53,725 nt of DNA from Burkholderiaceae bacterium (GTDB taxonomy: Bacteria > Pseudomonadota > Gammaproteobacteria > Burkholderiales > Burkholderiaceae_B). A program made the position numbers and the translations under genes. Numbering within the stretch: position 1 is the first letter of the stretch; the number at the start of each line of letters is the position of its first letter. The notes beneath the pieces were generated by a model. That model was not told where the DNA came from and made no database searches. It was given only the letters and a program-made list of their open reading frames with translations. Shown one piece after another: positions 23,154 through 45,864 of the stretch. The stretch lies in contig JAJOJF010000016.1 of assembly GCA_021208885.1 (NCBI GenBank), positions 1 to 53,725 of the forward strand. The letters are read 5' to 3'.

Positions 23154-23166
23154 AAAGCTCAGGCCT

Positions 23167-24387: not shown

Positions 24388-24405
24388 CCAATAGCACCAA
24401 AATAG

Positions 24406-24442: not shown

Positions 24443-24502
24443 TTAATTTTTGATATCAGAGCGCCGGTATCCGAAATTGGTGCCAAATTGCGCGCCAAAA
24501 CT

Positions 24503-24518: not shown

Positions 24519-24585
24519 TGAAGCATTGCAACGCCTTAACAGGCGGTGGCCTTACTCTCAAACCCATCATTGATTCGGAGCCATT

Positions 24586-25998: not shown

Positions 25999-26015
25999 TT
26001 ATGTGTCACTAGGTG

Positions 26016-26037
26016 GTCGGGCCTGACCCGGCCCGAC
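26016..26037 (+). promoter_or_regulatory. GC-rich hairpin between glnA and ntrB
   Basis: Perfect 8-bp arms GTCGGGCC and GGCCCGAC (26016-26023 and 26030-26037) enclose a six-base loop. There is no following T-run, so it is not a classical intrinsic terminator. It ends four bases before the ntrB ATG and would cover the ribosome-binding region. It could limit ntrB translation or mark the 3' end of a glnA-only mRNA. Confidence 0.6.
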
Positions 26038-26041
26038 AACC

Positions 26042-27091: not shown

Positions 27092-28569
27092 AGCCAGTCT
27101 GGATAGTCGATGACGATCAAGCCATCCGGTGGGTGCTGGAAAAAGCCCTGACACGGGCAAATATCGATACGCTCAGTTTTGCGAACGCTCAGGAGGTCGA
27201 ACAGGCTTTACAAAAAGACACGCCTGCTGCCTTGATCACTGACATTCGCATGCCTGGTAAAGACGGCCTGAAGCTTCTTGGCGAGATCAAGTCAGAACAC
27301 CCAAAGTTGCCAGTCATTGTAATGACTGCGTATGGCGATCTTGACAGTACCGTCTCTGCTTTCCAGGGGGGCGCGTTTGATTTTTTGGCTAAACCATTTG
27401 ATGTCAATGAGGCCGTGGCGCTGATTGAGCGTGCCATGCAAGAGAATACGGATGGTGTCTCGGTCAATGGCGAGGACAAGACTGGCAATGGCAAAACCGG
27501 TGGGCGTGCCATGCTGACCCAATCCTTGTCGCCTGCCATGCAAGAGGTCTTTAGGGCAATTGGCAAGCTCGCGCAGTCTAACGTAACTGTTTTAATCACT
27601 GGCGAGTCGGGCACAGGCAAGGAATTGGTTGCTCGCGCGTTGCACGACCATGGCATGCGGGCACATGCCCCATTTGTCGCTCTGAACACAGCCGCCATTC
27701 CACGCGATTTGCTCGAGGCTGAACTCTTCGGACACGAGCGGGGAGCATTTACGGGCGCCAGCGCCAATCGTCGTGGCCGGTTTGAAGAAGCCTCGGGCGG
27801 CACCTTATTTCTTGATGAGATTGGTGACATGCCGCTTGAGCTGCAAACGCGCTTGTTACGAGTTCTGTCTGACGGCACGTTTTATCGAGTCGGTGGCTCT
27901 CAGCCAGTCAAGGTTGACGTTCGAATCGTCGCCGCCACGCATCAGCCGCTAGAGGAGCGAGTGCGCGAAGGAAAGTTTCGTGAAGATCTGTTTCATCGGC
28001 TAAACGTCATTCGCTTGCGTTTGCCGCCGCTGCGTGAGCGACGCGAAGATGTCCCGGCACTGGCCAGGCATTTTTTAGCTGCTAGTGCAAAGTCGTTAGG
28101 AGTGTCTGTCAAGCGCTTGTCCGACAATGCGATGCAGCAATTCCAGCAATTTGATTTCCCGGGTAATGTGCGCCAGCTTGAGAACTTTTGTCATTGGCTG
28201 ACCGTGATGGCACCGGGCCAGACGATCAATGTGACAGATCTGCCGCCGGAGGTCACATCAACAGGATTGCTTGCCAGTGAACCCGAGCATGTTCGGCAAG
28301 AGCATTTGTTGGCAACATCGCCCATTCAGCCTGCGACTTCAAGTCGCAGCTGGACTGAATTATTGGCGCAAGATGCGTCAGAGCGACTGGCTACCGCCCA
28401 GCCAGACGTCTGGGCAGCGCTGACACAAGACTTCGAACGTGCCGTTATTGAAGCCGCACTGCGCGCTTGCCGCGGTCGGCGAGTGGAGGCTGCTTCAAGG
28501 CTTGGGATGGGCCGAAACACGATCACTCGCAAGTTGCGCGAACTTGGCATGGATCCGCCAGGCCTTTGA
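27088..28569 (+). CDS. glnG: nitrogen regulation response regulator NtrC (GlnG)
   Basis: This 493-residue sigma-54 activator has a receiver domain with acidic pocket VDDD and phospho-acceptor Asp52 in LITDIRMPGKDG. The AAA+ domain has Walker A GESGTGKE, the sigma-54-contacting GAFTGA loop at residues 219-224, and GGTLFLDEIGDMP. A C-terminal Fis-type helix-turn-helix is present (RRVEAASRLGMGRNTITRKLREL). It binds the enhancer sites upstream of glnA and opens the sigma-54 promoter. The start overlaps the ntrB stop by four bases. Confidence 0.96.
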   Translation: MKPVWIVDDDQAIRWVLEKALTRANIDTLSFANAQEVEQALQKDTPAALITDIRMPGKDGLKLLGEIKSEHPKLPVIVMTAYGDLDSTVSAFQGGAFDFLAKPFDVNEAVALIERAMQENTDGVSVNGEDKTGNGKTGGRAMLTQSLSPAMQEVFRAIGKLAQSNVTVLITGESGTGKELVARALHDHGMRAHAPFVALNTAAIPRDLLEAELFGHERGAFTGASANRRGRFEEASGGTLFLDEIGDMPLELQTRLLRVLSDGTFYRVGGSQPVKVDVRIVAATHQPLEERVREGKFREDLFHRLNVIRLRLPPLRERREDVPALARHFLAASAKSLGVSVKRLSDNAMQQFQQFDFPGNVRQLENFCHWLTVMAPGQTINVTDLPPEVTSTGLLASEPEHVRQEHLLATSPIQPATSSRSWTELLAQDASERLATAQPDVWAALTQDFERAVIEAALRACRGRRVEAASRLGMGRNTITRKLRELGMDPPGL

Positions 28570-28903
28570 GGTACCGAGCTTTAAAGCCCGTTGCTTTTTT
28601 ACACTCAAGGTCAGATTGGTCGGTTGCTCAACCCGCGGTCAGTGCTGGGCGTCGTCGCCCAATGAGCCAGGACTTCGCTATGGTTGCGTCGTGGCCAGCC
28701 CGACAGATCCAGCGGCTTGGGGCGCCAAGTTCTCTCGATCAATGTCGAACCTCCGTTTTGAATTCAGACTGTCAACGGTGCACCGAGCGTGAAGGCGCTA
28801 GGGTGTTTTGGATAACAGTCATTTATTCGTCCTATTGAAACGATTAGAATTTAGCTATCGCACAGGCATTCTGTGCCCCCTGAGTATTCAACGGAGATGA
28901 CTA
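28570..28903. other. 334-bp intergenic region between ntrC and ridA
   Basis: No coding frame here has family features. Near the right end there is a possible -10 element TAGAAT (28845-28850), without a convincing -35, and a stem-loop at 28860-28876. Near the left end, GCTTTAAAGC followed by a short T-run (about 28578-28600) is too weak to call a terminator. No tRNA or known RNA could be recognised. The rest shows nothing I can interpret. Confidence 0.5.
28860..28876 (+). promoter_or_regulatory. stem-loop in the ridA leader
   Basis: Perfect arms GCACAG and CTGTGC flank GCATT. It lies about 10 bases after the possible -10 element TAGAAT and 27 bases before the ridA GTG, so it would form the very 5' end of the mRNA if that promoter is real. 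It could stabilise the transcript or be an operator dyad. Confidence 0.35.
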
Positions 28904-29290
28904 GTGATTAAAGAGATCATTCACACTGACAAAGCACCGGCTGCGGTTGGGCCTTACTCACAAGCTGTCGCGACTGCAGCGGACAAGATGGTGTTCTTGT
29001 CAGGGCAGATAGGCTTCATACCGGCAACGGGTGAACTTGTCACCTCCTCGTTTGAGGATCAGGTCAAACAGGCCTTTCAAAACATGGCTGCCGTCATTGA
29101 CGCGACGGGGGGTAACTTAAATAATATTGTGAAACTTACTCTTTATCTTACTGATTTAAATAATTTTTCTGTGGTTAACGATATCATGGCATCGGTGATT
29201 CCACAGCCATTTCCAGCGCGTTCAACCGTCGGTGTTGCCAGTTTGCCCAAGGGGGCCTCATTTGAGGTCGAAGCAATCATCGCCCTCTAA
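28904..29290 (+). CDS. ridA: RidA, 2-iminobutanoate/2-iminopropanoate deaminase
   Basis: This 128-residue canonical RidA has KAPAAVGPYSQAV, FLSGQIGFIP, the FPARSTVGVASLPKGASFEVEAIIAL C-terminus and the arginine (PARS) that binds the substrate carboxylate. It destroys reactive enamines/imines released by PLP enzymes such as threonine dehydratase. The start is GTG 28904, with GGAGA ahead of it. A stretch of about 65 bases (29113-29180) is far more AT-rich than the rest of the gene. The 3' end overlaps the start of recG. Confidence 0.94.
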   Translation: MIKEIIHTDKAPAAVGPYSQAVATAADKMVFLSGQIGFIPATGELVTSSFEDQVKQAFQNMAAVIDATGGNLNNIVKLTLYLTDLNNFSVVNDIMASVIPQPFPARSTVGVASLPKGASFEVEAIIAL

Positions 29291-31307
29291 ACGTCGCGAT
29301 GCGGCGACGCTGTTTGAGCGGCTTGGATTGACCACGCCGCTTGATTTTTTGCTGCATTTCCCCATTCGGTACGAGGACGAGACACGTCTGCAGAGCATCT
29401 CAGCTGCCATCCCTGGACGTTATTTGCAAGCAGAGGGCACAGTTATATCGTCTGAAGTGACTTATCGCCCACGCAAGTATCTGACAGCAAGGTTTGCCGA
29501 TGAAACGGGCTCCGTACAGTTACGCTGGCTCAATTTCTATCCGAGTCAGATGCAGCAAATGCAGCCGGGCAAGCGTTGGCGGGTGCGTGGTGAGGTGAGG
29601 GCTGGCTATCAAGGCCTCGAACTGGTTCATCCCAAGGTTTCTAGTCCCTCACAGCCGTTGCCGACATCGCTAACCCCCGTGTATCCAACCACTGAAGGAC
29701 TGACACAAAAAGCAATTCGTCAACGTATCGAGACTGCGCTGGAGACGCTCGACATGGACGACACGCTGCCGCAATCGGTGGTTGATGAGTTTGGACTGGA
29801 GAGTTTTGCTGACGCCGTGAATGTGTTGCACCGCCCCAAGCCCGGAGAGGATTTGGCGAGTCTGGAGGATCGTACTCACCCGGCATGGGTTAGGGTCAAG
29901 TTTGACGAATTGCTGGCTCAGCAATTGAGTTTGGCCGCTGCGCGCGAGAAACGTCGCACGCGGCGCGCTAAGCCGCTATTGCCACCGATCGCCCGTTCAA
30001 GTTTGGCTGATGAACTCCTTACCCATCTGCCATTCAAGCTGACGGCAGCCCAGCAGCGCGTGATCGCTGAAATTCATGCCGATCTGGCTCAAGGCTACCC
30101 CATGCATCGACTGCTTCAGGGCGATGTCGGTAGCGGTAAAACGGTGGTGGCGGCATTGGCTGCCATGCGTGCAATTGATAATGGCAAGCAAGCAGCCGTT
30201 ATGGCACCCACCGAGATTCTGGCAGAGCAGCACTATCTGAAACTCAAGCCTTGGGCCCAGGCGCTAGGATTGCACTGTGTGTGGCTGACCGCTGGGCTGC
30301 GTGCGCCAGTAAAACGACAAGCCTTGGCTGAAATCGCGTCGGGGCAAGCGCAGTTGGTGGTGGGCACCCAAGCGCTGATTCAGGCTGGCGTTCAGTTTCA
30401 TGACCTGGGCTTGGCCATTGTCGATGAGCAGCACCGGTTTGGTGTGTCGCAGCGTTTGTCTCTTGGAGAAAAAGCGCAGGGCGGTCTGCCGCATCAGCTC
30501 ACCATGAGTGCCACGCCCATTCCTCGATCACTGGCCATGACGTTTTTTGCGGATCTCGATGTGTCAGTGATTGACGAACGCCCGCCGGGGCGATTGCCCG
30601 TCAAAACAAAGCTAGTGAGCGCTTCTCGTCGCTCTGAAGTGATTCAGGGTGTGCGCGAATCGGTCGAGCAAGGTGGCCAGGTTTACTGGGTCTGTCCGCT
30701 TGTTGAGGAAAGCGAGGCTTTGCAACTGCAAACGGCTGTCGATACCCATGAGGTGTTAAGCCAAGCCTTGGCTGGTCTGAACGTGGGTTTGGTTCACGGG
30801 CGCTTGTCCGCAGCAGAGAAAACCGACGTGATGCAGCAGTTTAAGTCTGGCGAGATCGCTGTCCTGGTTGCGACTACCGTCATTGAGGTGGGCGTGGATG
30901 TGCCCAATGCCAGCCAAATGGTGATTGAGCATGCCGAACGGTTTGGCCTGGCTCAGCTGCATCAATTGCGGGGAAGGGTAGGACGCGGCACACGCGAATC
31001 GGTCTGCGTATTGATGTACGAACCGCCTTTGTCGGCTGAAGCGAAATACCGGTTGCGGGCCATGTATGAAACCGACGATGGTTTTGAAATTGCCAGGCGT
31101 GACTTGCAGCTGCGCGGCCCTGGGGAGTTTCTTGGTGCGCGTCAATCGGGGTTATCACTTTTGCGATTTGCGGATTTTGAGGCTGATGCGCATTGGGTCA
31201 CACGCGCCAAAGAGTTGGCGCGAACCTTGCGCCAAGATCACCCAGATATTGCGCAACGTCATGTAGACCGATGGATGCAGGGTCGCGAGGCTTATTTAAA
31301 CGGGTAG
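29262..31307 (+). CDS. recG: ATP-dependent DNA helicase RecG
   Basis: This RecG of about 681 residues reverses stalled replication forks and branch-migrates Holliday junctions. It has an N-terminal wedge/OB domain (to about residue 190), helicase motifs LQGDVGSGKTVVAALAA, MAPTEILAEQH, DEQHRFGVSQR and MSATPIPRSLAMT. The second RecA lobe has ATTVIEVGVDVPNA, HQLRGRVGRG and the LQLRGPGEFLGARQSG translocation motif. No ATG fits the start. TTG 29262 has AAGGGGG six bases upstream and overlaps ridA by 29 bases; GTG 29232 is an alternative. OxyR follows after 23 bp. Confidence 0.94.
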   Translation: MRSKQSSPSKRRDAATLFERLGLTTPLDFLLHFPIRYEDETRLQSISAAIPGRYLQAEGTVISSEVTYRPRKYLTARFADETGSVQLRWLNFYPSQMQQMQPGKRWRVRGEVRAGYQGLELVHPKVSSPSQPLPTSLTPVYPTTEGLTQKAIRQRIETALETLDMDDTLPQSVVDEFGLESFADAVNVLHRPKPGEDLASLEDRTHPAWVRVKFDELLAQQLSLAAAREKRRTRRAKPLLPPIARSSLADELLTHLPFKLTAAQQRVIAEIHADLAQGYPMHRLLQGDVGSGKTVVAALAAMRAIDNGKQAAVMAPTEILAEQHYLKLKPWAQALGLHCVWLTAGLRAPVKRQALAEIASGQAQLVVGTQALIQAGVQFHDLGLAIVDEQHRFGVSQRLSLGEKAQGGLPHQLTMSATPIPRSLAMTFFADLDVSVIDERPPGRLPVKTKLVSASRRSEVIQGVRESVEQGGQVYWVCPLVEESEALQLQTAVDTHEVLSQALAGLNVGLVHGRLSAAEKTDVMQQFKSGEIAVLVATTVIEVGVDVPNASQMVIEHAERFGLAQLHQLRGRVGRGTRESVCVLMYEPPLSAEAKYRLRAMYETDDGFEIARRDLQLRGPGEFLGARQSGLSLLRFADFEADAHWVTRAKELARTLRQDHPDIAQRHVDRWMQGREAYLNG

Positions 31308-31330
31308 GATTTAGTCAGGGGAGGGATCTA

Positions 31331-32284
31331 ATGACACTAACCGAACTGAAATACATTGTGGCTGTGGCCCGCGAGCGGCATTTTGGGCGGGCTGCTGAAG
31401 CTTGCTTTGTCAGCCAGCCTACATTGTCCGTCGCCATTCGTAAGCTCGAAGATGAGCTTGGTATCATCATTTTTGAGCGTGGTGGCTCGGAAATTGGTGT
31501 TACGCCAGTGGGCGAACGTGTGGTCGCGCAGGCACACAAAGTGCTGCAAGAAAGTGCTGCGATCAAGGAAATTGCCCGTATGGGGCATGATCCCTTGGCC
31601 GGTCCACTTAGAGTCGGTGTTATCTACACCATCGGACCCTATCTCTTGCCGCGCTTGATTCCAACACAGATCGAGCGCACACCGCAAATGCCGCTGATCT
31701 TGCAAGAGAACTTCACCGCCAAGCTTGTCGAGCTGTTGCGTCAAGGCGAGATCGATTGCGCCATCATGGCGTTGCCGCTGCCAGACTCTGGCTTGAGCAT
31801 GGTGCCGCTTTATGACGAGCCCTTCATGGTGGCCATGCCTGCGAACCATCCGTGGGCCACCCGAGCCGAAATCGACGCTGAAGACCTGAAACAAGAAAAC
31901 ATGTTGCTGCTTGGCTCAGGCCATTGCTTTCGAGACCATGTTCTTGGTGTCTGCCCCGAGTTGTCGCGCTATTCGGATGCGTCTGAAGGTATACAGCGAA
32001 CGTTTGAAGGGTCTTCGCTCGAGACAATTCGTCACATGGTCGCTGCCGGCATCGGCTTGACCGTGATGCCAGTGACATCGCTCATGGGCAATGAACACCC
32101 TGAGTCCCGGCTGCTGAAATACGTCCCGTTTAAAGAGCCTGCACCTGAGCGGCGTGTCGTTTTGGCGTGGCGTAAAAGTTTTCCTCGCATGGCTGCCATT
32201 AAAGCACTTGCTCACGCGATACAAGCTACCCAATTGCCAGGTGTGCAGATGCTTGAGCTGGATGCCAGCGCATTAGACGAGTAA
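31331..32284 (+). CDS. oxyR: hydrogen peroxide-sensing regulator OxyR
   Basis: This 317-residue LysR-type regulator begins with the OxyR-like DNA-binding domain (MTLTELKYIVAVARERHFGRA). It keeps both redox cysteines at the E. coli positions: Cys199 in GSGHCFRDH and Cys208 in LGVCPE. Peroxide would form the C199-C208 disulfide and switch the protein on. ATG 31331 has a GGAGGG ribosome-binding site. The next gene is dps, a classic OxyR target, and recG-oxyR adjacency is common in this group. Confidence 0.95.
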   Translation: MTLTELKYIVAVARERHFGRAAEACFVSQPTLSVAIRKLEDELGIIIFERGGSEIGVTPVGERVVAQAHKVLQESAAIKEIARMGHDPLAGPLRVGVIYTIGPYLLPRLIPTQIERTPQMPLILQENFTAKLVELLRQGEIDCAIMALPLPDSGLSMVPLYDEPFMVAMPANHPWATRAEIDAEDLKQENMLLLGSGHCFRDHVLGVCPELSRYSDASEGIQRTFEGSSLETIRHMVAAGIGLTVMPVTSLMGNEHPESRLLKYVPFKEPAPERRVVLAWRKSFPRMAAIKALAHAIQATQLPGVQMLELDASALDE

Positions 32285-32340
32285 GAGTCGTGGTGGTATT
32301 CTGAAATAGTCAATAGTGGGCATTTTTAAAAGGACAGATC

Positions 32341-32841
32341 ATGGCCAAAAAACTTTCAGCGGCTGCCAAAGCACCGCCCATTAACATCGGTATTTCAGCC
32401 AAAGATCGCGCCGCGGTGGCTGGCGAACTTTCTAAGATGCTCGCAGATTCCTACACGCTTTACATGATGACGCACAATTTTCACTGGAATGTGGAAGGCC
32501 CGATGTTTAATACGTTGCACGCCATGTTCATGACTCAGTACACCGAGCAGTGGAATGCGTTGGACAACATCGCTGAGCGTATTCGTGCGCTTGGGCACTA
32601 CGCGCCGGGGACCTACTCTGAGTACGCGAAGCTGTCATCGATTCATGAGCCCAACGCGGTGCCTGAGGCAACTGAGATGATTCGACTTTTGGTGCACGGC
32701 AATGAAGCCGTGGCTAAGACTGCGCGCGCAGCATTAAACAAGGCGGACCAGGCCAATGATCAACCGAGCGCAGACTTGCTAACGCAGCGTCTTGACATCC
32801 ATGAGAAAAATGCGTGGATGTTGCGCAGTCTCTTGCAATAA
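32341..32841 (+). CDS. dps: Dps-family ferritin-like DNA protection protein
   Basis: This 166-residue Dps has a short basic N-terminal tail (MAKKLSAAAK), useful for DNA binding. The ferroxidase motif includes His48 (THNFHW), His60, Asp75 and Glu79 (DNIAERIRALG). The family forms dodecamers that oxidise iron with peroxide and coat DNA. By ungapped comparison with E. coli Dps, the place of the ligand Asp67 is Met64 here. A good AAAAGGA ribosome-binding site precedes the ATG. It lies directly downstream of oxyR (56 bp), and ubiA starts 3 bp after its stop. Confidence 0.94.
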   Translation: MAKKLSAAAKAPPINIGISAKDRAAVAGELSKMLADSYTLYMMTHNFHWNVEGPMFNTLHAMFMTQYTEQWNALDNIAERIRALGHYAPGTYSEYAKLSSIHEPNAVPEATEMIRLLVHGNEAVAKTARAALNKADQANDQPSADLLTQRLDIHEKNAWMLRSLLQ

Positions 32842-32844
32842 GCC

Positions 32845-33714
32845 GTGACTGCTGCAGTGATCAACCGGCTGGGTTTATATGCCCGGCTGGTTCGGTTAGA
32901 TAAGCCAATAGGCACTTTGTTGCTCCTTTGGCCAACGCTCTGGGCATTGTGGGCTGCCGGGCAGGGTAGTCCACCTGTTCCTATCTTGCTGATATTCGTT
33001 GCCGGTACGTTTCTGATGCGGGCGGCCGGTTGCGCAATCAATGACTATTTTGATCGCGACTTTGATAGGCATGTCCAACGCACGCAAGCGCGTGTATTAA
33101 CGACTGGCCTGATCAAACCCAAAGAGGCTTTGTTTGTGGCGGCCAGCTTGGCATTTATTGCCTTCGCGCTAGTCTTGCTATTAAATAGGCTGACCATCCA
33201 GCTCTCATTTGTGGCGTTGGTGTTGGCAGCCACCTACCCGCTAATGAAACGCCTTTTCAGTGTGCCGCAAGCCTACCTCGGTATTGCTTTCGGATTCGGG
33301 ATCCCGATGGCATTTGCGGCTATTACCGACTCAGTGCCTGTCGTGGCGTGGGTATTTCTGTTGGCGAATATTTTCTGGACAGTGGCTTACGATACGGAAT
33401 ACGCCATGGTCGACCGCGATGATGACATCAAACTAGGTTTAAAGACAGCAGCAATTACGTTTGGAAGGTTTGACGTCGCAGCCATTGGCATTTGTTATGG
33501 GCTTGCCATTGCGCTGCTAGCTTACGCGGGGTCGCTTATGGGGTGGGGTTTGGCTTACTTAGGCGGGCTTTTTGTGGCTGCTGGCATCGCCGTGACGCAT
33601 TTGCGGTGGATCAGGCGGCGAGACCGAGTCGCTTGTTTTCGGGCATTTCGTCACAACAACTGGTTTGGCGCTGCTGTTTTTGCGGGAATTGTTTTGCAAT
33701 ACATCGTGGCTTAA
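32845..33714 (+). CDS. ubiA: 4-hydroxybenzoate octaprenyltransferase
   Basis: This 289-residue integral membrane prenyltransferase joins the polyprenyl tail to 4-hydroxybenzoate in ubiquinone synthesis. It has the two aspartate motifs NDYFDRDFD and DTEYAMVDRDDD that bind Mg-diphosphate, and the N-terminal RLDKPIGTLLLLWPTLWALW signature. About eight to nine hydrophobic segments are visible. GTG 32845 is used, three bases after the dps stop, so translation may be coupled. The enzyme making its substrate, UbiC, is encoded at 2409-3017. Confidence 0.94.
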   Translation: MTAAVINRLGLYARLVRLDKPIGTLLLLWPTLWALWAAGQGSPPVPILLIFVAGTFLMRAAGCAINDYFDRDFDRHVQRTQARVLTTGLIKPKEALFVAASLAFIAFALVLLLNRLTIQLSFVALVLAATYPLMKRLFSVPQAYLGIAFGFGIPMAFAAITDSVPVVAWVFLLANIFWTVAYDTEYAMVDRDDDIKLGLKTAAITFGRFDVAAIGICYGLAIALLAYAGSLMGWGLAYLGGLFVAAGIAVTHLRWIRRRDRVACFRAFRHNNWFGAAVFAGIVLQYIVA

Positions 33715-36595: not shown

Positions 36596-37072
36596 ATGCT
36601 TATGCGTTATTTGATTTCAGCATTGGTAGCCCTGGTGCCGATGGCTGTCGGGTATGGTGTTTGGCAATTTTTGGCTAAACCACGCGCTGCTGACTCTCTC
36701 TGGATTGCACCTACCGATGGTCAAGCCAGGCTCGAAGGCAAACGCCTGTATGACACCTATTGTGCGAGCTGCCATGGCATCAGCCTCCAAGGGCAAGCTA
36801 ACTGGCGCCAACGGATGGACAATGGCAGGCTACCCGCACCGCCACACGATTTCAGCGGGCATACTTGGCACCATCCGGACATCCAATTAATCGAGATGAT
36901 CAAAATCGGATTTGTCGGTGGTGTAAATGCACCCAAAGGCTATCAAAGCGATATGCCTGCGTTCGGATCGGTGTTGTCTGATGAGCAGATCCGTCTGGTT
37001 CTGGGCTACATAAAGTCAGCCTGGCCCGACGATGCGCTAGAAGCGCAGAGAGAAATCTCATTGAAACAATAA
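36596..37072 (+). CDS. exported c-type cytochrome
   Basis: This 158-residue protein has an N-terminal hydrophobic signal/anchor (residues about 4-26) and one haem-binding motif CASCH near residue 56. A C-terminal Met in SDMPAFG is the likely sixth ligand, the layout of a small monohaem class I cytochrome (cytochrome_C_oxidase-subunit-III type). It would carry electrons at the periplasmic side of the membrane. It follows the aldolase gene after 5 bp, so it is probably cotranscribed, although no functional link to the aldolase or dehydrogenase is known to me. A second ATG two codons in (36602) is possible. Confidence 0.87.
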   Translation: MLMRYLISALVALVPMAVGYGVWQFLAKPRAADSLWIAPTDGQARLEGKRLYDTYCASCHGISLQGQANWRQRMDNGRLPAPPHDFSGHTWHHPDIQLIEMIKIGFVGGVNAPKGYQSDMPAFGSVLSDEQIRLVLGYIKSAWPDDALEAQREISLKQ

Positions 37073-37094: not shown

Positions 37095-37122
37095 ACTTTA
37101 CATAATATACATTATGCGTTTT
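37095..37122 (-). other. dif: dif-like XerC/XerD chromosome dimer resolution site
   Basis: Read on the minus strand this 28-mer has a left arm ending CGCATAA, centre TGTATA and a right arm TTATGTAAAGT. Against the E. coli dif sequence as I recall it, 22 of 28 positions agree: 7 of 11 in the XerC arm, all six of the centre, and 9 of 11 in the XerD arm. It lies in the 128-bp gap between two converging operons, where no regulatory dyad would be expected. GGGNAGGG octamers switch strand exactly across it, as KOPS do at dif. XerCD acting here with FtsK would resolve chromosome dimers, marking the terminus region. Confidence 0.87.
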
Positions 37123-37200: not shown

Positions 37201-38703
37201 TTAACGAGTTTCAATTAGCAAAGGCGGATGCGAATCCAAATATGTGGATGCATAAGCAAGCTCGCCAACAGCCTCGGCGTACATCGTGAACACCGGTTCG
37301 CCCCGTTTGACCTCATCGCCCAACCGAACATGCATAACGACACCAGCCGTTTTAGCTTCTGGCGCCCCTAGTAGCTTCGCAAGCCTAGCCAAGCGCCGAT
37401 TGTCGATGGTTTGTACGATCCCATCGGCACTTGCGGTAACCGTGTGGTCAATCGGTGCAGTTTCAGGTTCAGTAAAGCCACCCTGAGCATCGCAAATTCG
37501 TAAAAACTTGTCCCAGGCATGGCCCGACACCAATATCGATTCAGCTTGGCGATAACCTTGTCCGGGCGAGCTTTGATTGCAAAGTTCGAGTACTTCGCCT
37601 GCTAATGTCAATGCACGCTCACGCAAATCATTTGGCGCTTTTGGGTCATTCTTGAGCACTGAAATAACGTCTTTTGCCTCAAGTGCCGGGCCAATGCCAC
37701 GACCGACGGGTTGCGAGCCGTCTGTACGAAGCACTTTTAAGTTCAAGCCGTTGGCAAATGCGACCTGATTGAGCAAATGCTCCAGTTGATCAGCTTGCTC
37801 CTTGCTACGCACTTTGGCTGTCGGTCCGATGGGAATGTCAATGACAGCATGGGTAGAGCCAGCTGCGATTTTTTTAGAGAGAACGGAAGCCACGAGCTGA
37901 GCGTCACTGTCAAGCTCAAGCGGACGTGCGACTTTAATCATGAGATCGTCCGCCGGACTTAGCGCCAATGACCCTCCCCAAACGAAACATCCACCCTCTT
38001 TCTCAACCACGTCTCGCATGGCATCAAGCCCCAGTGTGACTGGCGTCATGACTTCCATCACGTCAGCCGTGCCGGCTGGCGATGTGATCGCGCGAGATGA
38101 GGTTTTTGGCATGGTAAGGCCTGCGCTAGCGGCAATTGCCACCACGATAGGTGTTGTGCGATTGCCGGGCAAGCCACCCACACAATGCTTGTCGGCCACA
38201 GGGGTTGTCCCCCAGCTCAGTCGCTCGCCAATGGCAACCATGGCTGCGGTTAAATCAATGACCTCTTGTACGTTGGCCCGGCGTCCGGCCATTGCGGTCA
38301 GAAAAGCTGCGATATGGATATTGGCATAACGCCCTCGTGCTATGTCAGCCACAATTGCTTCAAACCCATGACGGTCAAGCCTGTGTCCATAGATTTTGGT
38401 GCGTAATTGGCTAAGCGAGTCGACTGGTGCGGCCTGCATGACCTCAATGGCATCACCAGGCCTGGCATCAAGATCCTTTTCTGTGTTCAGCGACAGCCCG
38501 ATCTCGCCGCAGTCTAGCAAGTCCGAGTGCACCACGTTGACAATCGCGATGACGCTTTTGTTGTCGTGTCTGAGCTCTACCCGGGTTTGTGCCTCAATGC
38601 CCTCGGACTTGCAGATGTGGCAATCGCGATGCATGAACGCCACATGCTCTTGCAGAGTGTCAATGCCAAGTGGCTTGTAGGTTAGGCTCGAGGGCTGAGT
38701 CAT
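37201..38703 (-). CDS. thymidine phosphorylase family protein, AMP/NMP phosphorylase-like
   Basis: This 500-residue nucleoside/nucleotide phosphorylase has the DeoA-type catalytic core starting only near residue 100 (LRTKIYGHRLDRHGFEAIVADIARGRY). The core includes the phosphate-site DKHCVGGLPGNRTTPIVV and SSRAITSPAGTADVMEV. Classical DeoA is about 440 residues and lacks the N-terminal domain of about 90 residues. Length and layout match the archaeal AMP phosphorylase branch, which splits NMPs into base and ribose-1,5-bisphosphate. Activity on thymidine is therefore doubtful; NMP phosphorolysis is inferred. The start ATG 38703 overlaps the stop of the upstream beta-CASP gene (ATGA). Confidence 0.88.
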   Translation of the reverse strand: MTQPSSLTYKPLGIDTLQEHVAFMHRDCHICKSEGIEAQTRVELRHDNKSVIAIVNVVHSDLLDCGEIGLSLNTEKDLDARPGDAIEVMQAAPVDSLSQLRTKIYGHRLDRHGFEAIVADIARGRYANIHIAAFLTAMAGRRANVQEVIDLTAAMVAIGERLSWGTTPVADKHCVGGLPGNRTTPIVVAIAASAGLTMPKTSSRAITSPAGTADVMEVMTPVTLGLDAMRDVVEKEGGCFVWGGSLALSPADDLMIKVARPLELDSDAQLVASVLSKKIAAGSTHAVIDIPIGPTAKVRSKEQADQLEHLLNQVAFANGLNLKVLRTDGSQPVGRGIGPALEAKDVISVLKNDPKAPNDLRERALTLAGEVLELCNQSSPGQGYRQAESILVSGHAWDKFLRICDAQGGFTEPETAPIDHTVTASADGIVQTIDNRRLARLAKLLGAPEAKTAGVVMHVRLGDEVKRGEPVFTMYAEAVGELAYASTYLDSHPPLLIETR

Positions 38704-40076
38704 AAGCTGATTTGTTGTCCAAGTAATGGCACGACGCAATCAATGCCAAGCTCACGTTCAATGCGAAGGCGCAACGTATCGGCTGCCTCTGGCTCCCCGT
38801 GGTTTAGGTAAATGCGCTTTGGCTCGCGCGTTGCTGTCTTGACCCAGTCGATCAATTGATCAGCATCAGCATGCGCAGAAAACCCGTCAATCGAGTGAAC
38901 ACTCGCCTTGATCACCAGATCCTGTCCAAACACACGGACGGTGCCTTCGCCCGCGACCATGCGAGCGCCGCGGGTGCCGGCAGCTTGAAACCCGGCAAAT
39001 ACGATCGAGTTGCGATGATCGCCAACTAAGGTTCGTAAGTGATGCAGCACCCGGCCACCGGTGGCCATGCCACTTGCTGAGATAATGATGCGTGGATACT
39101 TGACTTCATTGAGCGCTTTAGACTGATCAACGGTTTGCACCATTTTTGCGATGCCAAATACGTCCTTGATTGCTCTCTGAGACAAGAGGTGATCGTTGTG
39201 ATGGCGTTTATAGAGCTCGGTGACATTGACAGCCATGGGACTATCAAGAAACACAGGCACGTTGGGAATTTGACCCGATTTGATCAGAGCATCGATGGCG
39301 TGCAAAAGCACTTGTGATCGGCCCACAGCGAAGGCCGGCAACAATACCGCCCCGCCCCGCTCAACGGTCTCCTTGATGACTTTGGCTAGCTCGGCTCTTG
39401 GGTCCTCGCTAGGGTGGCGGCGGTTGCCATAAGTCGACTCCAAGATCAGGTGGTCAACGTCGCCAAGTGGATCGGGTGCGCCAAGAATTGGTGCCTCAGA
39501 GCGACCCAGGTCACCAGAAAAAACAATCTCAGCATCATCGGTTTTCATCCGAATCGATGCTGCGCCGAGGATGTGGCTAGCGTATTGCAGCTTCGCGGGC
39601 AACCCTGGCAAGATGTCTTGCCATTGGCCAAATCGCATGGGTTCAAACAACTCAAGGGTTTTTTCCACATCGTCAATGGTGTAAAGCGGCTTGGCGGGAT
39701 GGTGCTTGGAGGTGTGGTGGCGGTTGGCGTAGTCAGCTTCTTCGGCCTGTAGCTTGGCACTGTCAATCAACAGCACGCTTGCAACATCAATGGTGGCGTC
39801 CGACGTGAATATGGGCCCCCGATAGCCTTGACGTACAAGCAGCGGCAAGGCGCCTGAATGATCAATGTGGGCATGGGTCAGCAGCACAGCAGAGAGCTTT
39901 TTGACATCAAACGGCAACGGCAACCAATTGAGCTGGCGCAGGTTTTTAAAGCCTTGGAACAACCCCGCATCGACCATTACCTGATGCCCGGCATGTTTCA
40001 AAAGGGTCTTGGATCCCGTCACAGTCCCAGCTGCCCCAAGAAAGCTCAAACTGGTGTTGCTTGATGATTTGCGCAT
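38700..40076 (-). CDS. MBL-fold/beta-CASP RNA-processing metallohydrolase
   Basis: This 458-residue protein has metallo-beta-lactamase motifs LTHAHIDHSG and SGDLG, the beta-CASP region, and the C-terminal RNA-specificity segment (SVHSIDGFSAHADADQLIDW, YLNHGEPEA). This is the CPSF73-like architecture of RNA endo/exonucleases. ATG 40076 has GGAG upstream; a TTG seven codons earlier is the alternative. It overlaps the NMP-phosphorylase-like gene by four bases, suggesting the pair degrade RNA and recycle the nucleotides. Confidence 0.9.
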   Translation of the reverse strand: MRKSSSNTSLSFLGAAGTVTGSKTLLKHAGHQVMVDAGLFQGFKNLRQLNWLPLPFDVKKLSAVLLTHAHIDHSGALPLLVRQGYRGPIFTSDATIDVASVLLIDSAKLQAEEADYANRHHTSKHHPAKPLYTIDDVEKTLELFEPMRFGQWQDILPGLPAKLQYASHILGAASIRMKTDDAEIVFSGDLGRSEAPILGAPDPLGDVDHLILESTYGNRRHPSEDPRAELAKVIKETVERGGAVLLPAFAVGRSQVLLHAIDALIKSGQIPNVPVFLDSPMAVNVTELYKRHHNDHLLSQRAIKDVFGIAKMVQTVDQSKALNEVKYPRIIISASGMATGGRVLHHLRTLVGDHRNSIVFAGFQAAGTRGARMVAGEGTVRVFGQDLVIKASVHSIDGFSAHADADQLIDWVKTATREPKRIYLNHGEPEAADTLRLRIERELGIDCVVPLLGQQISL

Positions 40077-40253
40077 CTCGATTTTCTCCTGAATCAACTA
40101 TCGAGCCGGCATCCTAAACCTGATAGCGCTTGGTCAAAGCGCCGATGCGGTAAATTCACCCTACCCACTTCTACAATACACCGGGTGACGTCGGCTTGCA
40201 TCATGGTGCATGCGCAAGTCAGTTCAGCACGGATCTTTAATGGAGACTTGATT

Positions 40254-40547
40254 GTGATTACTGAAATTGCACACCTTGTGGTCAAAGCCGGCGAAGAGGC
40301 CGAATTCGAAAAGAAAGTCGCTCTTGCCAAGCCGCATTTCCTGTCATTTGAGGGTTGCCACGGCGTTTCCCTAGCGCGCTGCGTAGAAAACCCGCAGCAA
40401 TACCAACTTTTTGTGCAGTGGGATACGGTTGAGCGCCACATGGTTGATTTTCGGCAAAGCGAGAATTTCCAGAAATGGCGTGAACTTGCCAGCCCTCATT
40501 TTCAAGAGGCGCCGTGGGTCGAGCACGTTGCCTATGTGTCGCTCTAA
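40254..40547 (+). CDS. antibiotic biosynthesis monooxygenase (ABM) domain protein
   Basis: This protein of about 97 residues with the dimeric ABM ferredoxin-like fold contains VKAGEEAEFEKKVALAKPHF, QYQLFVQWDTVERHM and SENFQKWRELASPHF with a terminal VEHVAYV. Such small proteins include quinol monooxygenases and haem-degrading enzymes; the substrate is unknown. GTG 40254 is chosen because GGAG lies eight bases upstream; GTG 40185 and ATG 40203 are longer in-frame options without such support. It is divergent from the beta-CASP gene and converges with the next gene, 6 bp away. Confidence 0.8.
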   Translation: MITEIAHLVVKAGEEAEFEKKVALAKPHFLSFEGCHGVSLARCVENPQQYQLFVQWDTVERHMVDFRQSENFQKWRELASPHFQEAPWVEHVAYVSL

Positions 40548-40553
40548 TCGAGC

Positions 40554-40973
40554 TCAATAGCCCTGATCCGCGCGCTTTTGGGCGTAACGCATGTCAGCAT
40601 CGAATTGCAGGCGCGCGCGGGCTAGACAAACTTTTTTGTCTTCTGGTTGCAAGCCTTCACAAGCTTCCTTGTTCATCTGATAGGCGGCTTTGGCTTCACG
40701 TTGAAACAAGGCGAGAATTTCCTCTCGCGTCATGGCGCCGTCTTGAGTCGCTGGCTGGCCTAGGTTGGTTGTCGGGCTAGCGACCTGACCGCCCGTTGCA
40801 GGTTGGGCAGACTGCGATTGCGCCCAGGTATCGCTAGTAAGCCCTAAACCGAGTACGCTGGCCACGAGCGGCGGTAAAGCAATAGCTCGCAGGGTTGCTG
40901 GCAAACAAAACTTTTTGCAGATACCCACCATGTGGCGTAAGCTTTTGAGGCATTCATTCGCGTTTTGTCGCAT
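40554..40973 (-). CDS. small exported protein of unknown function
   Basis: This 139-residue protein has an N-terminal signal sequence (hydrophobic part about residues 27-48, cleavage likely after TWAQ). A Gln/Pro/Thr-rich linker follows, then a charged helical C-terminal half with three-to-four-residue spaced Ala/Arg/Lys (EILALFQREAKAAY, KVCLARARLQFDADM). Two cysteines (in KEACEG and KKVCLA) could form a disulfide in the periplasm. I do not recognise a named family with known function. ATG 40973 has AAGGAAG upstream. It is divergent from the peroxiredoxin gene (43 bp). Confidence 0.7.
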   Translation of the reverse strand: MRQNANECLKSLRHMVGICKKFCLPATLRAIALPPLVASVLGLGLTSDTWAQSQSAQPATGGQVASPTTNLGQPATQDGAMTREEILALFQREAKAAYQMNKEACEGLQPEDKKVCLARARLQFDADMRYAQKRADQGY

Positions 40974-41016
40974 GATGACTTCCTTAATCCATATTTGATG
41001 ATTAAAAGATACCGCG

Positions 41017-41670
41017 ATGCCAACAACTAGACTAGCCCCCCGACTGACGATAATGCCTCTGGCTTTGATCAATCGATCAAAATCGACCTTCGCTTCGATA
41101 GTTGGAATTTTTATTGCATGCAGTTTCTCGATGTCCACCGCTCACGCTCAACTCGCACCTGGCTCCAAGGCGCCGTTGTTTAAGGCACCGGCAGCCTTGG
41201 CAGGTGAGCCGTTTGAATTTGACTTGCAAGCGACATTGAAGCAAGGGCCTGTCGTGGTGTACTTCTACCCAAAGGCATTTACTAGCGGGTGCACGGTTGA
41301 GGCACAGTTGTTTGCTCAAGCCATGGATGATTTCAAGGCAGTCGATACCACGGTTGTCGGTGTCTCTGGCGATAATATCGACACGTTAAAGAAATTTTCG
41401 GAAGGTCCTTGTGGCGGCAAGTTTGCCGTGGCTGCTGATCCTGATGGCAAAATCATCAAAGCCTATGATGCCGGATTAGCCATCATTCCTGGCATGGCTG
41501 ACCGCATTTCCTATGCCGTTTCGCCAGATGGCACGATTTTGGAGACTTATGAGAGCATGAGCCCTGATCAGCATGTCACTCGCACGCTTGCTGCGGTGCG
41601 TGATTGGCACGCGACACAGCAACTGACCAAGCCGCATTCAGACCAGACACAAACAGGTAAGACTCAATGA
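41017..41670 (+). CDS. exported peroxiredoxin (AhpC/TSA, BCP-like)
   Basis: This 217-residue thioredoxin-fold protein has an N-terminal signal peptide ending near STAHAQ, so it acts in the periplasm. The peroxidatic Cys lies in PKAFTSGCTVEAQLF, and a second Cys is in SEGPCGGKFAVAAD, in a position possible for resolution. It would reduce peroxides with a thiol donor. ATG 41017 is listed; ATG 41053 would give a shorter but still complete signal peptide. Its stop overlaps the photolyase start (ATGA), so the two are probably translated together. Confidence 0.87.
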   Translation: MPTTRLAPRLTIMPLALINRSKSTFASIVGIFIACSFSMSTAHAQLAPGSKAPLFKAPAALAGEPFEFDLQATLKQGPVVVYFYPKAFTSGCTVEAQLFAQAMDDFKAVDTTVVGVSGDNIDTLKKFSEGPCGGKFAVAADPDGKIIKAYDAGLAIIPGMADRISYAVSPDGTILETYESMSPDQHVTRTLAAVRDWHATQQLTKPHSDQTQTGKTQ

Positions 41671-43070
41671 CAGATCTGGTTTGGTTTCGAACGGATCTGC
41701 GCATTACTGACCAGCCAGCGTTGGCAGCGGCTCGCGACAGTGGACCCGCGATCGGTCTATTTATCGTTTCGCCCCAACAGTGGCGGTCACATCCGGAAGC
41801 GCCGTCAAAGCAAGAACTCTGGCGCAGATTGCTCAAAGACCTGCAGCCTCGCTTGTCCGAACGTGGCGTGGCGCTAAAGCTTCTGCGTGTTGAGAACTGG
41901 CAAGATGTGCCACAGGCATTGCTGGCTTTTTGCCAGAAACATGACATCACGCGCGTGCACTGTAACCGTGAGCAAGGTGTTTACGAGCGTCGCCGTGATC
42001 GGGCAGCATACAAGTTGCTTGCCCAACACGGCATCGAGCTCATTGGGTACGATGGACAAACCCTGATGGCACCCGGATCACTCAAGACTGGCAGCGGTGC
42101 GACCTATCGCGTGTTTAGCCCGTTTGCGCGTGCCTGTCGTGCACAGATTGCTAGAGTGCCCCTTGAACTTGCGTACACACCAGGCTATGCACCCTTGCCT
42201 GCCGGTGTTGATCCTGATGATATCGATTTGGTTTGGCCTGAACGACTCCCATGTCTGGCCGAGCATTGGCCGGCCGATCTAGATGAGATTGAACGGCGAC
42301 TCGTGCTTTTTGTGCGTGAGCGCGCGAGCCGCTACGACACCGCACGAGACTTCCCGTCTGAGCCCGGCACAAGCCAGCTATCGCCTTATCTCGCTGCCGG
42401 CGCCATCTCAGTCAAACAGTGTTTCTATCAGGCCCTGCAGCATAACCACGGCGAGCTTGAGTCTGGAAATCCTGGTATCCGCAGTTGGATGAATGAACTA
42501 ATTTGGCGTGAGTTTTACTGGCATTTGTTGCATGGGTTTCCCAAACTTTCTATGCACAGGCCTTTGCGTGAAGAGACCGATGCAGTCGTCTGGCGCGATG
42601 CGCCAGAGGATGTGGCGGCCTGGTGTAAGGGTCGCACTGGGGTGCCGATTGTGGATGCCGCCATGCATCAATTAGTTGCCACTGGCTGGATGCACAATCG
42701 CCTGCGCATGATTGTGGCCATGTTTCTGACAAAAAATCTGTTGATTGATTGGCGGGTGGGCGAGCGGTTTTTTATGGAACACCTGATTGATGGAGAGCTG
42801 GCAGCCAATAATGGTGGCTGGCAGTGGAGTGCGTCGACTGGGGCTGATGCTGCACCCTACTTTCGGGTCTTTAATCCCGTGAGTCAATCAGAAAAATTCG
42901 ATCCTGACGGCAGGTTTATTCGACATTGGTTGCCGCAGCTCGCGGCGCTGGACAAAAAATCCATACACAACCCGAGTCAGGCTCAACGCGAGGCATTAGG
43001 CTACCCGTCGATGCTCGTGGATTTGAAGTCAAGTCGTCAGCGCGCAATAGACGCTTTCAAGGGTATTTAG
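41667..43070 (+). CDS. phrB: deoxyribodipyrimidine photolyase
   Basis: This 467-residue class I CPD photolyase uses blue light, FADH and an antenna cofactor to split cyclobutane pyrimidine dimers. It has an N-terminal antenna domain (LVWFRTDLRITDQPAL) and the C-terminal FAD domain with SQLSPYLAAGAIS, WMNELIWREFYWHLL, GVPIVDAAMHQLVATGWMHNRLRM and GWQWSASTGADAAPYFRVFNP. The length is normal. Translation is coupled to the upstream peroxiredoxin by a four-base overlap, and a peroxidase and a GST gene follow, making a stress-defence group. Confidence 0.95.
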   Translation: MTDLVWFRTDLRITDQPALAAARDSGPAIGLFIVSPQQWRSHPEAPSKQELWRRLLKDLQPRLSERGVALKLLRVENWQDVPQALLAFCQKHDITRVHCNREQGVYERRRDRAAYKLLAQHGIELIGYDGQTLMAPGSLKTGSGATYRVFSPFARACRAQIARVPLELAYTPGYAPLPAGVDPDDIDLVWPERLPCLAEHWPADLDEIERRLVLFVRERASRYDTARDFPSEPGTSQLSPYLAAGAISVKQCFYQALQHNHGELESGNPGIRSWMNELIWREFYWHLLHGFPKLSMHRPLREETDAVVWRDAPEDVAAWCKGRTGVPIVDAAMHQLVATGWMHNRLRMIVAMFLTKNLLIDWRVGERFFMEHLIDGELAANNGGWQWSASTGADAAPYFRVFNPVSQSEKFDPDGRFIRHWLPQLAALDKKSIHNPSQAQREALGYPSMLVDLKSSRQRAIDAFKGI

Positions 43071-43147
43071 ACCGAACAATATTCAAAGCAAAGTGGTTTT
43101 AACGAGTCGATTTAACGAACTGAGACAACATGAAGGAGCTGCTTGAT

Positions 43148-43627
43148 ATGGCAAACATGGCTGACTTTTCTGCAACCGACATCCATGGGCAAGACCGGTC
43201 TCTTGGCGACTATCTCGGCAAAGTGGTTCTCGTGGTCAATGTGGCATCGCGTTGTGGCTTTACCGGTCAATATGCTGGCTTGCAGCAGCTCTTCTCAGAG
43301 CTCACTGATCGTGGGTTGGTGATCCTGGGCTTCCCTTGCAACCAGTTCGGCTCCCAAGAGCCCGGCGATGAAGCTGCGATTGAGTCGTTCTGTGAAACAC
43401 ATTACGGGGTCACCTTCCCTATGTTTGCCAAAATTGAGGTCAATGGCAGCGGTGCGCATCCCTTCTACGAGTGGCTGAAATCCAGCATGCCAGGTGTTCT
43501 TGGTACTGAGGCGATCAAATGGAACTTCACCAAGTTCTTGCTAGATCGCCAAGGCAACGTGGTTAAACGCTATGCACCAAACGCAACGCCTGAGTCCATC
43601 CGCCCAGACATAGAGGCCTTGCTCTAA
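43148..43627 (+). CDS. glutathione peroxidase (Cys type)
   Basis: This 159-residue peroxidase has the active-site segment NVASRCGFTGQYAGL with Cys36 (not selenocysteine), LGFPCNQFGSQEPG with the Gln/Cys region, and IKWNFTKFL with the Trp-Asn of the catalytic tetrad. It reduces hydroperoxides; bacterial Cys forms often use thioredoxin instead of glutathione. ATG 43148 is used because AAGGAG (43133-43138) sits at the right distance. The ATG at 43130 precedes that site and is rejected. It lies 77 bp after the photolyase. Confidence 0.92.
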   Translation: MANMADFSATDIHGQDRSLGDYLGKVVLVVNVASRCGFTGQYAGLQQLFSELTDRGLVILGFPCNQFGSQEPGDEAAIESFCETHYGVTFPMFAKIEVNGSGAHPFYEWLKSSMPGVLGTEAIKWNFTKFLLDRQGNVVKRYAPNATPESIRPDIEALL

Positions 43628-43667
43628 ACTGATCACTCATTCACACAACATCAACAAAGCAAAAACA

Positions 43668-44330
43668 ATGATCGATCTCTATTACTGGACAACACCCAAC
43701 GGCCACAAAATCACCCTGTTTCTCGAGGAAACTGGACTGCCCTACTCCATCAAGCTGATCAATATCGGGAAAGGTGAGCAGTTTGCGCCAGAATTTCTCG
43801 TGATTTCGCCAAACAACCGCATTCCGGCGATTGTGGATCATGAGCCCACCGATGGTGGTGCACCACTTTCAGTGTTTGAGTCTGGCGCCATATTGCTTTA
43901 TCTTGCTGAGAAAACCGGAAAATTTCTGTCTAGCGACTTCCGTACACGCAACCAGACGCTCGAATGGTTATTCTGGCAAATGGGTGGCTTGGGTCCAATG
44001 GCTGGTCAAAATCATCATTTTGGCAATTTTGCCCCAGAAAAAATTCCGTATGCCATCAAGCGCTACGTTGACGAAACCGCAAGGCTATACGGTGTTCTCA
44101 ACAAGCGGCTTGAGGGGCGCGAATTCATTGCGGGCGACTATTCGATTGCTGACATGGCTTGTTTCCCATGGGTGGCAGCGTACACACGCCAACAAATCGA
44201 CATAAACGAGTTTCCCAACGTCAAACGCTGGTTTAACCAGATTCACCAGCGTGACGCCACCCAACGCGCCTATGCTCTGGCCGAAAAACTCAATCCGAAC
44301 GCCCCCAAATTGCCACCGCTAGCGGACTAG
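43668..44330 (+). CDS. glutathione S-transferase, YfcG/Nu-class-like
   Basis: This 220-residue GST has an N-terminal thioredoxin-like domain (YYWTTPNGHKITLFLEE, NNRIPAIVD, VFESGAILLYLAEKTG) and a helical C-terminal domain (EWLFWQMGGLGPMAGQNHHF, YSIADMACFPWV). The TPNGHK motif is typical of YfcG/YghU-type enzymes, which have disulfide-bond reductase activity with glutathione. The role here is probably thiol redox defence. It follows the peroxidase gene after 40 bp. Confidence 0.9.
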   Translation: MIDLYYWTTPNGHKITLFLEETGLPYSIKLINIGKGEQFAPEFLVISPNNRIPAIVDHEPTDGGAPLSVFESGAILLYLAEKTGKFLSSDFRTRNQTLEWLFWQMGGLGPMAGQNHHFGNFAPEKIPYAIKRYVDETARLYGVLNKRLEGREFIAGDYSIADMACFPWVAAYTRQQIDINEFPNVKRWFNQIHQRDATQRAYALAEKLNPNAPKLPPLAD

Positions 44331-44335
44331 TCGCT

Positions 44336-45025
44336 TTACCGATTTTGAGCGCGTCGTTCGTCAATGACTTTTTGTAAGTCGTCAGCGAGTTTGGTGTGAC
44401 CACGGTCACGGGCAGCCTGAGCGGCATCGATACCATTGATGTTGATTGCGCTAGGGTCAGCACCAGCTGCTAACAAAACTTGCACCGTATCAAATGCACC
44501 AGCCTGCGCTGCCATGGCAATTGGGTTGGTGCCATTGGGCGCTGGTGCATTTGGCAAGGCCCCTTGGGCTAAAAGAAACTCAACGACTGGCAATTGGCCT
44601 TTGGATGCCGCGTAATGCAAAGGCGTCCACCCCAGGTGATTCACTTGGGCGCCCATGGCCACGAGTTTCTTGACCATTTCGAGATTGCCAACCAGGCTGA
44701 CGTACATCAGTGGTGTCTCCTGATAGCCGTTCATGATGTTGATGTCGGTTTTGCGATTGTTAAGCACGACCTCAAACACATCCCATGAGTCGTCTCGAAC
44801 AGCCTGCATGATAATTGGATTGCCTCGTTTATCGCGTGTGTTGGGGTCAAGACCTTGGGCCAGCAACGCTTTGACATCATCGGCCCGGTCGTTGCGCACA
44901 TAAATCCAAAGGTCATCACGCGATTGAGCCAGTACCGGCATGGACAAGAAAATCAATGCAAGAAAAGCGAATAAAATGTTTAAAAACAATACATTAGAGC
45001 TGGATTTGTAAGCTTTTTCTTGCAT
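44336..45025 (-). CDS. exported ankyrin-repeat protein
   Basis: This 229-residue protein has a signal peptide (hydrophobic residues about 12-33, ending PVLAQ). About five ankyrin-type helix pairs follow, with recognisable ETPLMYVSLVGNLEMVKKLVAMGA, GWTPLHYAASKGQLPVVEFLLAQGA and NPIAMAAQAGAFDTVQVLLAAGA. Such repeats bind other proteins. Bacterial exported versions are often partners or immunity-like guards of periplasmic enzymes (AnkB protecting catalase in Pseudomonas is one case), but the partner here is unknown. It precedes tatD on the same strand with a 62-bp gap and converges with the GST gene. Confidence 0.88.
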   Translation of the reverse strand: MQEKAYKSSSNVLFLNILFAFLALIFLSMPVLAQSRDDLWIYVRNDRADDVKALLAQGLDPNTRDKRGNPIIMQAVRDDSWDVFEVVLNNRKTDINIMNGYQETPLMYVSLVGNLEMVKKLVAMGAQVNHLGWTPLHYAASKGQLPVVEFLLAQGALPNAPAPNGTNPIAMAAQAGAFDTVQVLLAAGADPSAININGIDAAQAARDRGHTKLADDLQKVIDERRAQNR

Positions 45026-45087
45026 CTCTTATCTCGGCAAAGTTGCGCTGCAATATTCGAAATGAATGTTTTGATTTAATTTCTAGA

Positions 45088-45864
45088 TTAACTCTCTATC
45101 TTGCTGAAAAGTCTAAAGAAATTTTCTGTTGACTGCTCAGCCACTTGCTCAACAGACAGCCCCTTTAACTCGGCAATTTTTTCGGCGACATGGATCACAA
45201 ACGAAGGGTCGTTACGTTTGCCTCGATGCGGCACTGGAGCCAGGTAAGGCGAATCTGTCTCGATCAGCAGCCTATCCATGGGCATCTTGGTTGCAGTTTC
45301 TTGCAAATCGCGGGCGTTTTTAAATGTCACTATCCCAGAAAACGACACATAAAAGCCCAACTCCATGCTTTGTTGCGCCATCTCCCAGCTTTCGGTGAAG
45401 CAATGCATCACGCCACCGACCTCATCGGCACCTTCTTCGCGCAGGATACGGATGGTGTCCTCGCGGGCCTCGCGCGTGTGAATGATTAAGGGCAGTTTTG
45501 CCTCTTTGGCGGCTCTGATATGCGTGCGAAACCGCTCACGTTGCCATTCAAGGTCGCCAGTCAGCCGATAGTAATCCAACCCCGTCTCGCCAATTGCCAC
45601 CACCTTGGGGCGCTTGCTGCGCGACACCAGGTCTTCAATGGTGGGTTCGACTTCGTTCTCATAGTCAGGATGAACGCCCACCGACGCCCAAAGCGTGGGT
45701 TCACGTTCGACCATTTGCATCATGGGATCCCAATCTGGCAGATTAACACTCACGCACAGCGCCATTTTGACGCTGTTTTGTGCCATACGCTCGGCAATCG
45801 CCGGATAGTCGGGTGCCAGATCCGGAAAATTAACGTGACAATGAGAGTCAATAAAAACAGTCAT
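45088..45864 (-). CDS. tatD: TatD family metal-dependent DNase
   Basis: This 258-residue TIM-barrel hydrolase has metal ligands in IDSHCHVNFPD, AIGETGLDYYR, LIIHTREA, VMHCFTES and IETDSPYL. TatD-family proteins are 3'-5' exonucleases and D-aminoacyl-tRNA deacylase relatives. The usual name in this position is YcfH, encoded after holB in E. coli too. The start ATG 45864 overlaps the holB stop (ATGA), so the two are translationally coupled. Confidence 0.93.
   Translation of the reverse strand: MTVFIDSHCHVNFPDLAPDYPAIAERMAQNSVKMALCVSVNLPDWDPMMQMVEREPTLWASVGVHPDYENEVEPTIEDLVSRSKRPKVVAIGETGLDYYRLTGDLEWQRERFRTHIRAAKEAKLPLIIHTREAREDTIRILREEGADEVGGVMHCFTESWEMAQQSMELGFYVSFSGIVTFKNARDLQETATKMPMDRLLIETDSPYLAPVPHRGKRNDPSFVIHVAEKIAELKGLSVEQVAEQSTENFFRLFSKIES

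Follow-up and report, generated by a model that had tools for sequence, protein, structure and literature searches.

In E. coli, septal FtsK reads KOPS motifs via its gamma domain, pumps the DNA to the dif site and activates XerD, and XerC finishes the exchange by which a chromosome dimer becomes two monomers. The stretch of DNA analyzed here (the window, 53,725 nucleotides, the whole of contig 42 in a draft genome of 49 contigs) contains a 28-bp site that is almost certainly the chromosomal dif for XerC/XerD dimer resolution in Burkholderiaceae bacterium. This had been proposed in a sequence-only reading of the window, and the proposal is supported by the sequence of the site, its single copy, its conservation in the genus, the position, GC skew and KOPS distribution in a congener assembled as one contig (G007, 2.80 Mb), and the xerC, xerD and ftsK genes.

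Read on the minus strand from 37122 to 37095, the site is AAAACGCATAA-TGTATA-TTATGTAAAGT, so that both the sequence and the coordinates of the 28-mer had been given correctly. It has the dif layout of two 11-bp arms and a 6-bp center, with the XerD arm best conserved (Table 1). Scored against the E. coli dif sequence, it is identical at 22 of 28 bases, the figure given in the sequence-only reading, including the whole center (6/6), the inner parts of both arms and 9 of the 11 XerD-arm bases. An identical run of 19 bases, CGCATAATGTATATTATGT, lies within the site, and the differences fall on the four outer XerC-arm bases and on two XerD-arm bases. An alignment with the dif of another member of the Burkholderiales had also been called for. 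The site of Bordetella pertussis Tohama I, as printed in the portion of PMC2731167 available to us (Carnoy and Roten 2009), matches at 26/28 bases, with positions 5-28 identical and both differing bases among positions 1-4, at the outer end of the XerC arm; this match is independent of our own pattern searches. According to the same portion of that paper, the first four dif bases also vary within species.

Table 1. Coordinates of the dif site, its parts, the adjoining genes and the KOPS-type octamers in the window.
Feature	Positions	Strand	Basis
dif, 28 bp (XerC arm, six-base center, XerD arm)	37095..37122	-	E. coli/Bordetella match; sole match in the genome
Predicted XerC-binding arm, AAAACGCATAA, facing the thymidine-phosphorylase-family gene	37112..37122	-	Position within the 28-mer compared with known dif
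Central hexamer, TGTATA	37106..37111	-	Identity with the E. coli dif center
Predicted XerD-binding arm, TTATGTAAAGT, facing the cytochrome c gene	37095..37105	-	9/11 to E. coli; same as the Bordetella arm printed in the available portion of PMC2731167
Left neighbor, small cytochrome c protein	36596..37072	+	ORF; NCBIfam cytochrome c models, all below cut-offs
Right neighbor, thymidine phosphorylase family	37201..38739	-	NF003338 and TIGR02645, above both curated cut-offs
Six KOPS-type octamers, GGGNAGGG, left of dif	span 302..32966; starts 302, 2261, 9330, 30971, 31318, 32959	+	
Three KOPS-type octamers, right of dif	span 37972..46295; starts 37972, 40159, 46288	-	

A search with a 22-base pattern (up to 3 mismatches) recovered this one copy in 2,694,114 bases; a better dif elsewhere, which the sequence-only reading had named as grounds for refuting it, did not turn up at that tolerance. 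As the draft is 84.84% complete, part of the genome is unseen and a second site could lie there. A sequence model trained on 30 sites from across the family, which include the window's and were all found via the core pattern, scored the window site at 35.1 bits (E 6.9e-10), and its next hit (6.1 bits) was the opposite strand of the same palindrome.

The same genome encodes the cognate proteins. Five tyrosine recombinases exceeded the Pfam cut-off, and the two of these run against NCBIfam were assigned as XerD (366.3 bits with TIGR02225, cut-off 329.6) and XerC (356.7 bits with TIGR02224, cut-off 335.15), each failing the cut-off of the other model; the nearest PDB entry to the XerD protein is 1a0p, itself named XerD. 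An FtsK with the KOPS-reading gamma domain (PF09397, 98.4 bits, cut-off 30.6) is present as well, as is an FtsK with this domain in all eight congeners. From the E. coli system, we infer arm binding, FtsK activation and recombination at the window's dif: XerC and XerD would likely bind the two 11-base arms, FtsK pumping along the converging KOPS is predicted to switch on XerCD, and XerCD would recombine two dif copies, turning a chromosome dimer into two monomers.

Stability among close relatives, on which the sequence-only reading had staked its claim, was checked in eight congeners. Seven of them carry dif, six being identical to the window site over positions 5-28, with one center base differing in the seventh (G006). 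In G007, the last 24 bases are identical, a single base differs within the outer four, and the site lies in the same convergent gap with the same neighbor genes. The eighth (G008) retains the left flank, and its contig stops in the cytochrome c gene at residue 136/158, short of dif; loss of dif in this genome was therefore rejected. Across the family, a first survey with up to 3 mismatches matched 50 of 61 genomes (the window's included), and positions 5-28 are identical to the window site in 14 of 30 sites (the window site plus 29 others). A slightly wider pattern, tolerating 3 mismatches or fewer over the core, matched 227 of 250 family genomes (backward control 7, counted from the list) and 200 of the 211 with a completeness of 90% or more and contamination of no more than 5%. 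At up to 3 mismatches, 11 of the 61 survey genomes gave no match (G008, G012, G023, G025, G037, G038, G047, G050, G051, G054 and G056). Ten of these are more than 90% complete, and the sequence model recovered only G023 among the 11, as a partial hit. The Burkholderia mallei dif sites printed in the available portion of PMC2731167 lie more than 3 mismatches from the search pattern by our count of their letters, so a diverged dif would be missed.

Contig ends were seen close to dif in several drafts, at 207 (G001:C171), 66 (G003:C265), 540 (G024:C3) and 147 bases (G035:C69), with G008:C151 ending just short of the site. The chance of such near ends under even placement was at most 0.023 in 4 of the 19 genomes checked (G001, G003, G024 and G032), and draft contig breaks near dif may reflect variable insertions there. 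One genome, G035, has three dif-like matches (C69, C266 and C317), of which two are identical over 22 bases and the third is different; several replicons, elements or contamination are possibilities.

The position of the site on the chromosome was taken from G007, since the sequenced part of the window's own draft has no dnaA gene. The distance from dnaA, which is likely beside the replication origin, to dif is 49.4% of the G007 chromosome, and it ranged from 44.9 to 50.0% of the contig in 9 of 9 one-contig relatives, chosen among those with a dif match. GC skew in G007, sampled in 20 stretches of 20 kb, is positive in all 11 between 0.20 and 1.56 Mb and negative in all nine elsewhere, and the 10-kb flanks of its dif show +0.060 on the left and -0.031 on the right. 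The G007 site thus lies opposite the likely origin and at the skew switch. In the window, the agreement is approximate: the skew is +0.055 left of dif and -0.010 right of it, and the cumulative maximum falls at 43,522, 6.4 kb to the right of the site, which counts against the dif reading.

The KOPS-type octamers point at the site from both sides in the window and in G007. Their strand reversal across the site, noted from the sequence alone, stood up to counting (6/6 on the plus strand to the left, 3/3 on the minus strand to the right, Fisher p = 0.012). In G007, 79 plus and 9 minus octamers were counted from dnaA to dif, and 7 plus and 73 minus on the rest of the chromosome (168 in total, 86 plus and 82 minus). 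The matches listed cover all 86 plus positions and the first 14 of the 82 minus positions, and the 73 was obtained by subtraction, assuming that the other 68, all beyond 1,574,417, lie past dif (1,588,268). The stretch read from 1,578,300 to 1,588,267 holds no octamer (1,574,425-1,578,299 being outside the reading), and plus-strand octamers are absent between dif and 2,479,487. The reversed pattern occurs 118 times in G007, versus 168 for KOPS. According to the portion of PMC3025954 available to us, dif positions track the skew switch, but replication probably ends elsewhere, so "terminus" should here mean the polarity switch where FtsK signals and skew converge, rather than a proven fork-meeting point. 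The site fixes this terminus-side switch on the draft chromosome and allows the contig to be oriented, with the XerD arm toward the cytochrome c gene and the KOPS converging on the gap.

Because a plus-strand gene ends on the left and a minus-strand gene on the right, the gap is convergent, as had been described; dif lies 22 bases past the cytochrome c stop and 78 bases from the thymidine-phosphorylase-family stop. Flank conservation was followed by searching 15 stretches of related genomes for 26 proteins of the window (24586-50998; E up to 1e-10). Gene order is the same for about 10 kb on each side of dif in G007, and the nearest neighbors are the same in G004 and, to its contig end, in G001. 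In G002, the thymidine-phosphorylase-family gene has no match (L033 9957-10085) and the match to the next gene lies about 70 bases from dif; in G005, two genes per side have no match (L036 3130-4626) and the matches nearest to dif start roughly 20 and 80 bases away. Two left genes are absent on the short contig of G003, and about 3 kb is inserted between dif and cytochrome c in G006. Among eight family genomes outside the genus, compared over 20 kb, four had no match and three had isolated weak ones; in one (G022), a two-gene pair (window 44336-45864) is kept on the XerC side of dif. Since the flanks are missing or changed in some relatives while the site stays, dif is kept largely independently of its neighbors. 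A scan of named genomes with the window locus returned six loci, the closest being CAMCOS010000002.1 and four being distant and left unused; another, from a Burkholderiaceae MAG, is cut off by a contig end within the right-hand gene, short of dif.

Two of the genes to the right of the site are observations in their own right. The gene at 37201-38739 belongs to an archaeal-type thymidine phosphorylase family (TIGR02645) in a betaproteobacterium, with relatives that include Leisingera and two Rickettsiales drafts. The gene at 38700-40097 encodes a beta-CASP metallo-hydrolase, for which the best NCBIfam models, both scoring below the cut-off, are a type VII CRISPR Cas14 model and archaeal aCPSF1.

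The insertion in G006 (L037 10010-12982, adjoining dif) holds a tyrosine-recombinase-like gene over two frames and a minus-strand coiled-coil frame, with a dif-like 11-6-11 palindrome between them (TTTGACATTA-6 bases-TAATGTCAAA). No second dif copy at the border of the insertion was found in 20 kb, the next 24-base scores being 17 and 15, the latter from the module palindrome itself. The first piece of the recombinase, which alone has no Pfam match, matched 55 of the 250 family genomes (E up to 1e-15), and the palindrome (up to 1 mismatch) was present in 37, always as a single copy, whereas the backward control gave no match. These 37 genomes all belong to the 55 with the recombinase piece, and in 35 of them no more than about 0.6 kb separates the palindrome from the recombinase match (judged by eye), the exceptions being G162 (8 kb apart) and G152 (on another contig). 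Palindrome and dif share a contig in 29 of the 37, from 12 genera; in three others dif sits on a separate contig, and in the remaining five no dif was found. The distance between them was at most 2 kb in 10 of the 29, 10 kb in 21, 20 kb in 25 and 100 kb in all. Ten of these genomes come from one genus (g2) and short contigs favor small distances, so the 29 cases are not independent events; 11 are single contigs of 3.3-6.2 Mb. In G036, the intact copy lies 96 kb from dif, but some 60 bases from dif there is a second copy, decayed and containing two stops. In genus g5 (G012, G106, G128 and G206), the module is present and dif was found with neither pattern, so the dif of this genus may be diverged or replaced. 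The module was also seen at loci L017, L099, L103 and L106, where the palindrome is flanked by divergently oriented genes for a KfrA-like protein and a tyrosine recombinase.

When scanned, the divergent partners were KfrA_N proteins (4/4) and the intact recombinases were Phage_integrase proteins (2/2), far below the XerC and XerD cut-offs. Relatives of the recombinase were found on 1412 of 72,556 plasmid records and on 1 of 50,697 phage records. In the three plasmid loci that were read, among 12 matches listed, a palindrome with 17-19 of 20 arm bases stands just before the recombinase, behind a gene annotated as a "DNA-binding protein" in two and as hypothetical in the third; one plasmid with a relative of the module is NZ_CP151407.1 of Azonexus hydrophilus. 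The plasmid relatives, the KfrA_N and Phage_integrase identities and the clustering at dif together indicate that the module is, as judged by sequence, of plasmid type and sits near dif on chromosomes of this family. Its palindrome would fit a putative resolution site and a KfrA operator alike. That a plasmid-type resolution cassette often settles beside dif, giving two independent site-specific recombination systems at the chromosome terminus, is conceivable and rather doubtful; the clustering beside dif is measured, and dimer resolution by the module is the bold part of the idea. No published account of a KfrA-like/recombinase module at dif was found by title among the papers listed in a literature search. 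The module may yet bear on ideas about dimer resolution, as it makes it testable whether some chromosomes harbor a second resolution system at the terminus or whether the terminus is a place where plasmid modules survive.

The dif reading of the window site had to be weighed against a palindromic operator or bidirectional transcription terminator whose likeness to dif is due to chance, since the site is indeed an imperfect palindrome inside a convergent gap. Yet its score of 22 against E. coli dif exceeds all of 300 first-order Markov sequences of window length, the best of which reached 21, once. The runner-up place in the window scores 17, and the 19-mer core (up to 3 mismatches) had no match in 100 shuffles; on the simulation and the shuffles, chance resemblance to dif was rejected. 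No promoter-like site was found within 36900-37400, and the sole terminator-like hairpin (37030-37015, minus strand, 0.4 expected in shuffles) lies inside the cytochrome c gene, off the site. With no terminator-like feature at dif itself, and with the sequence kept in congeners without the neighboring genes and at the same chromosomal position in other genera, an operator or terminator was rejected and is, in our judgment, scarcely credible. An RNA or tRNA integration target was likewise rejected, as the window contains no Rfam family at gathering score and no tRNA.

Xer sites are used by mobile elements as well, and the site might thus belong to an integrated element, a plasmid or a second chromosome, a possibility given some substance by the module near dif in many relatives, including the congener G006, and by its relatives on plasmid records. 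Integration through dif would, however, give two copies, and one was found in the 2,694,114 bases of the draft genome; neither the G006 recombinase piece nor the module palindrome has a match in it. Moreover, some 10 kb on either side of the site shares the gene order of G007, where the site lies almost half a chromosome from dnaA. An integrated element at the window's dif was rejected on these grounds, and we regard an origin of this kind as very improbable.

The chromosomal dif of the window can finally be set beside the Xer recombination sites of plasmids. As described in the available portion of PMC11724359, these xrs sites consist of two 11-bp arms and a center of 6-8 bp, a layout shared by the module palindrome of the relatives. 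The window site differs from the xrs sites in being chromosomal, and the module palindrome has symmetric arms. The window site is a further example of a thoroughly known kind, and it leaves ideas on dimer resolution unchanged.
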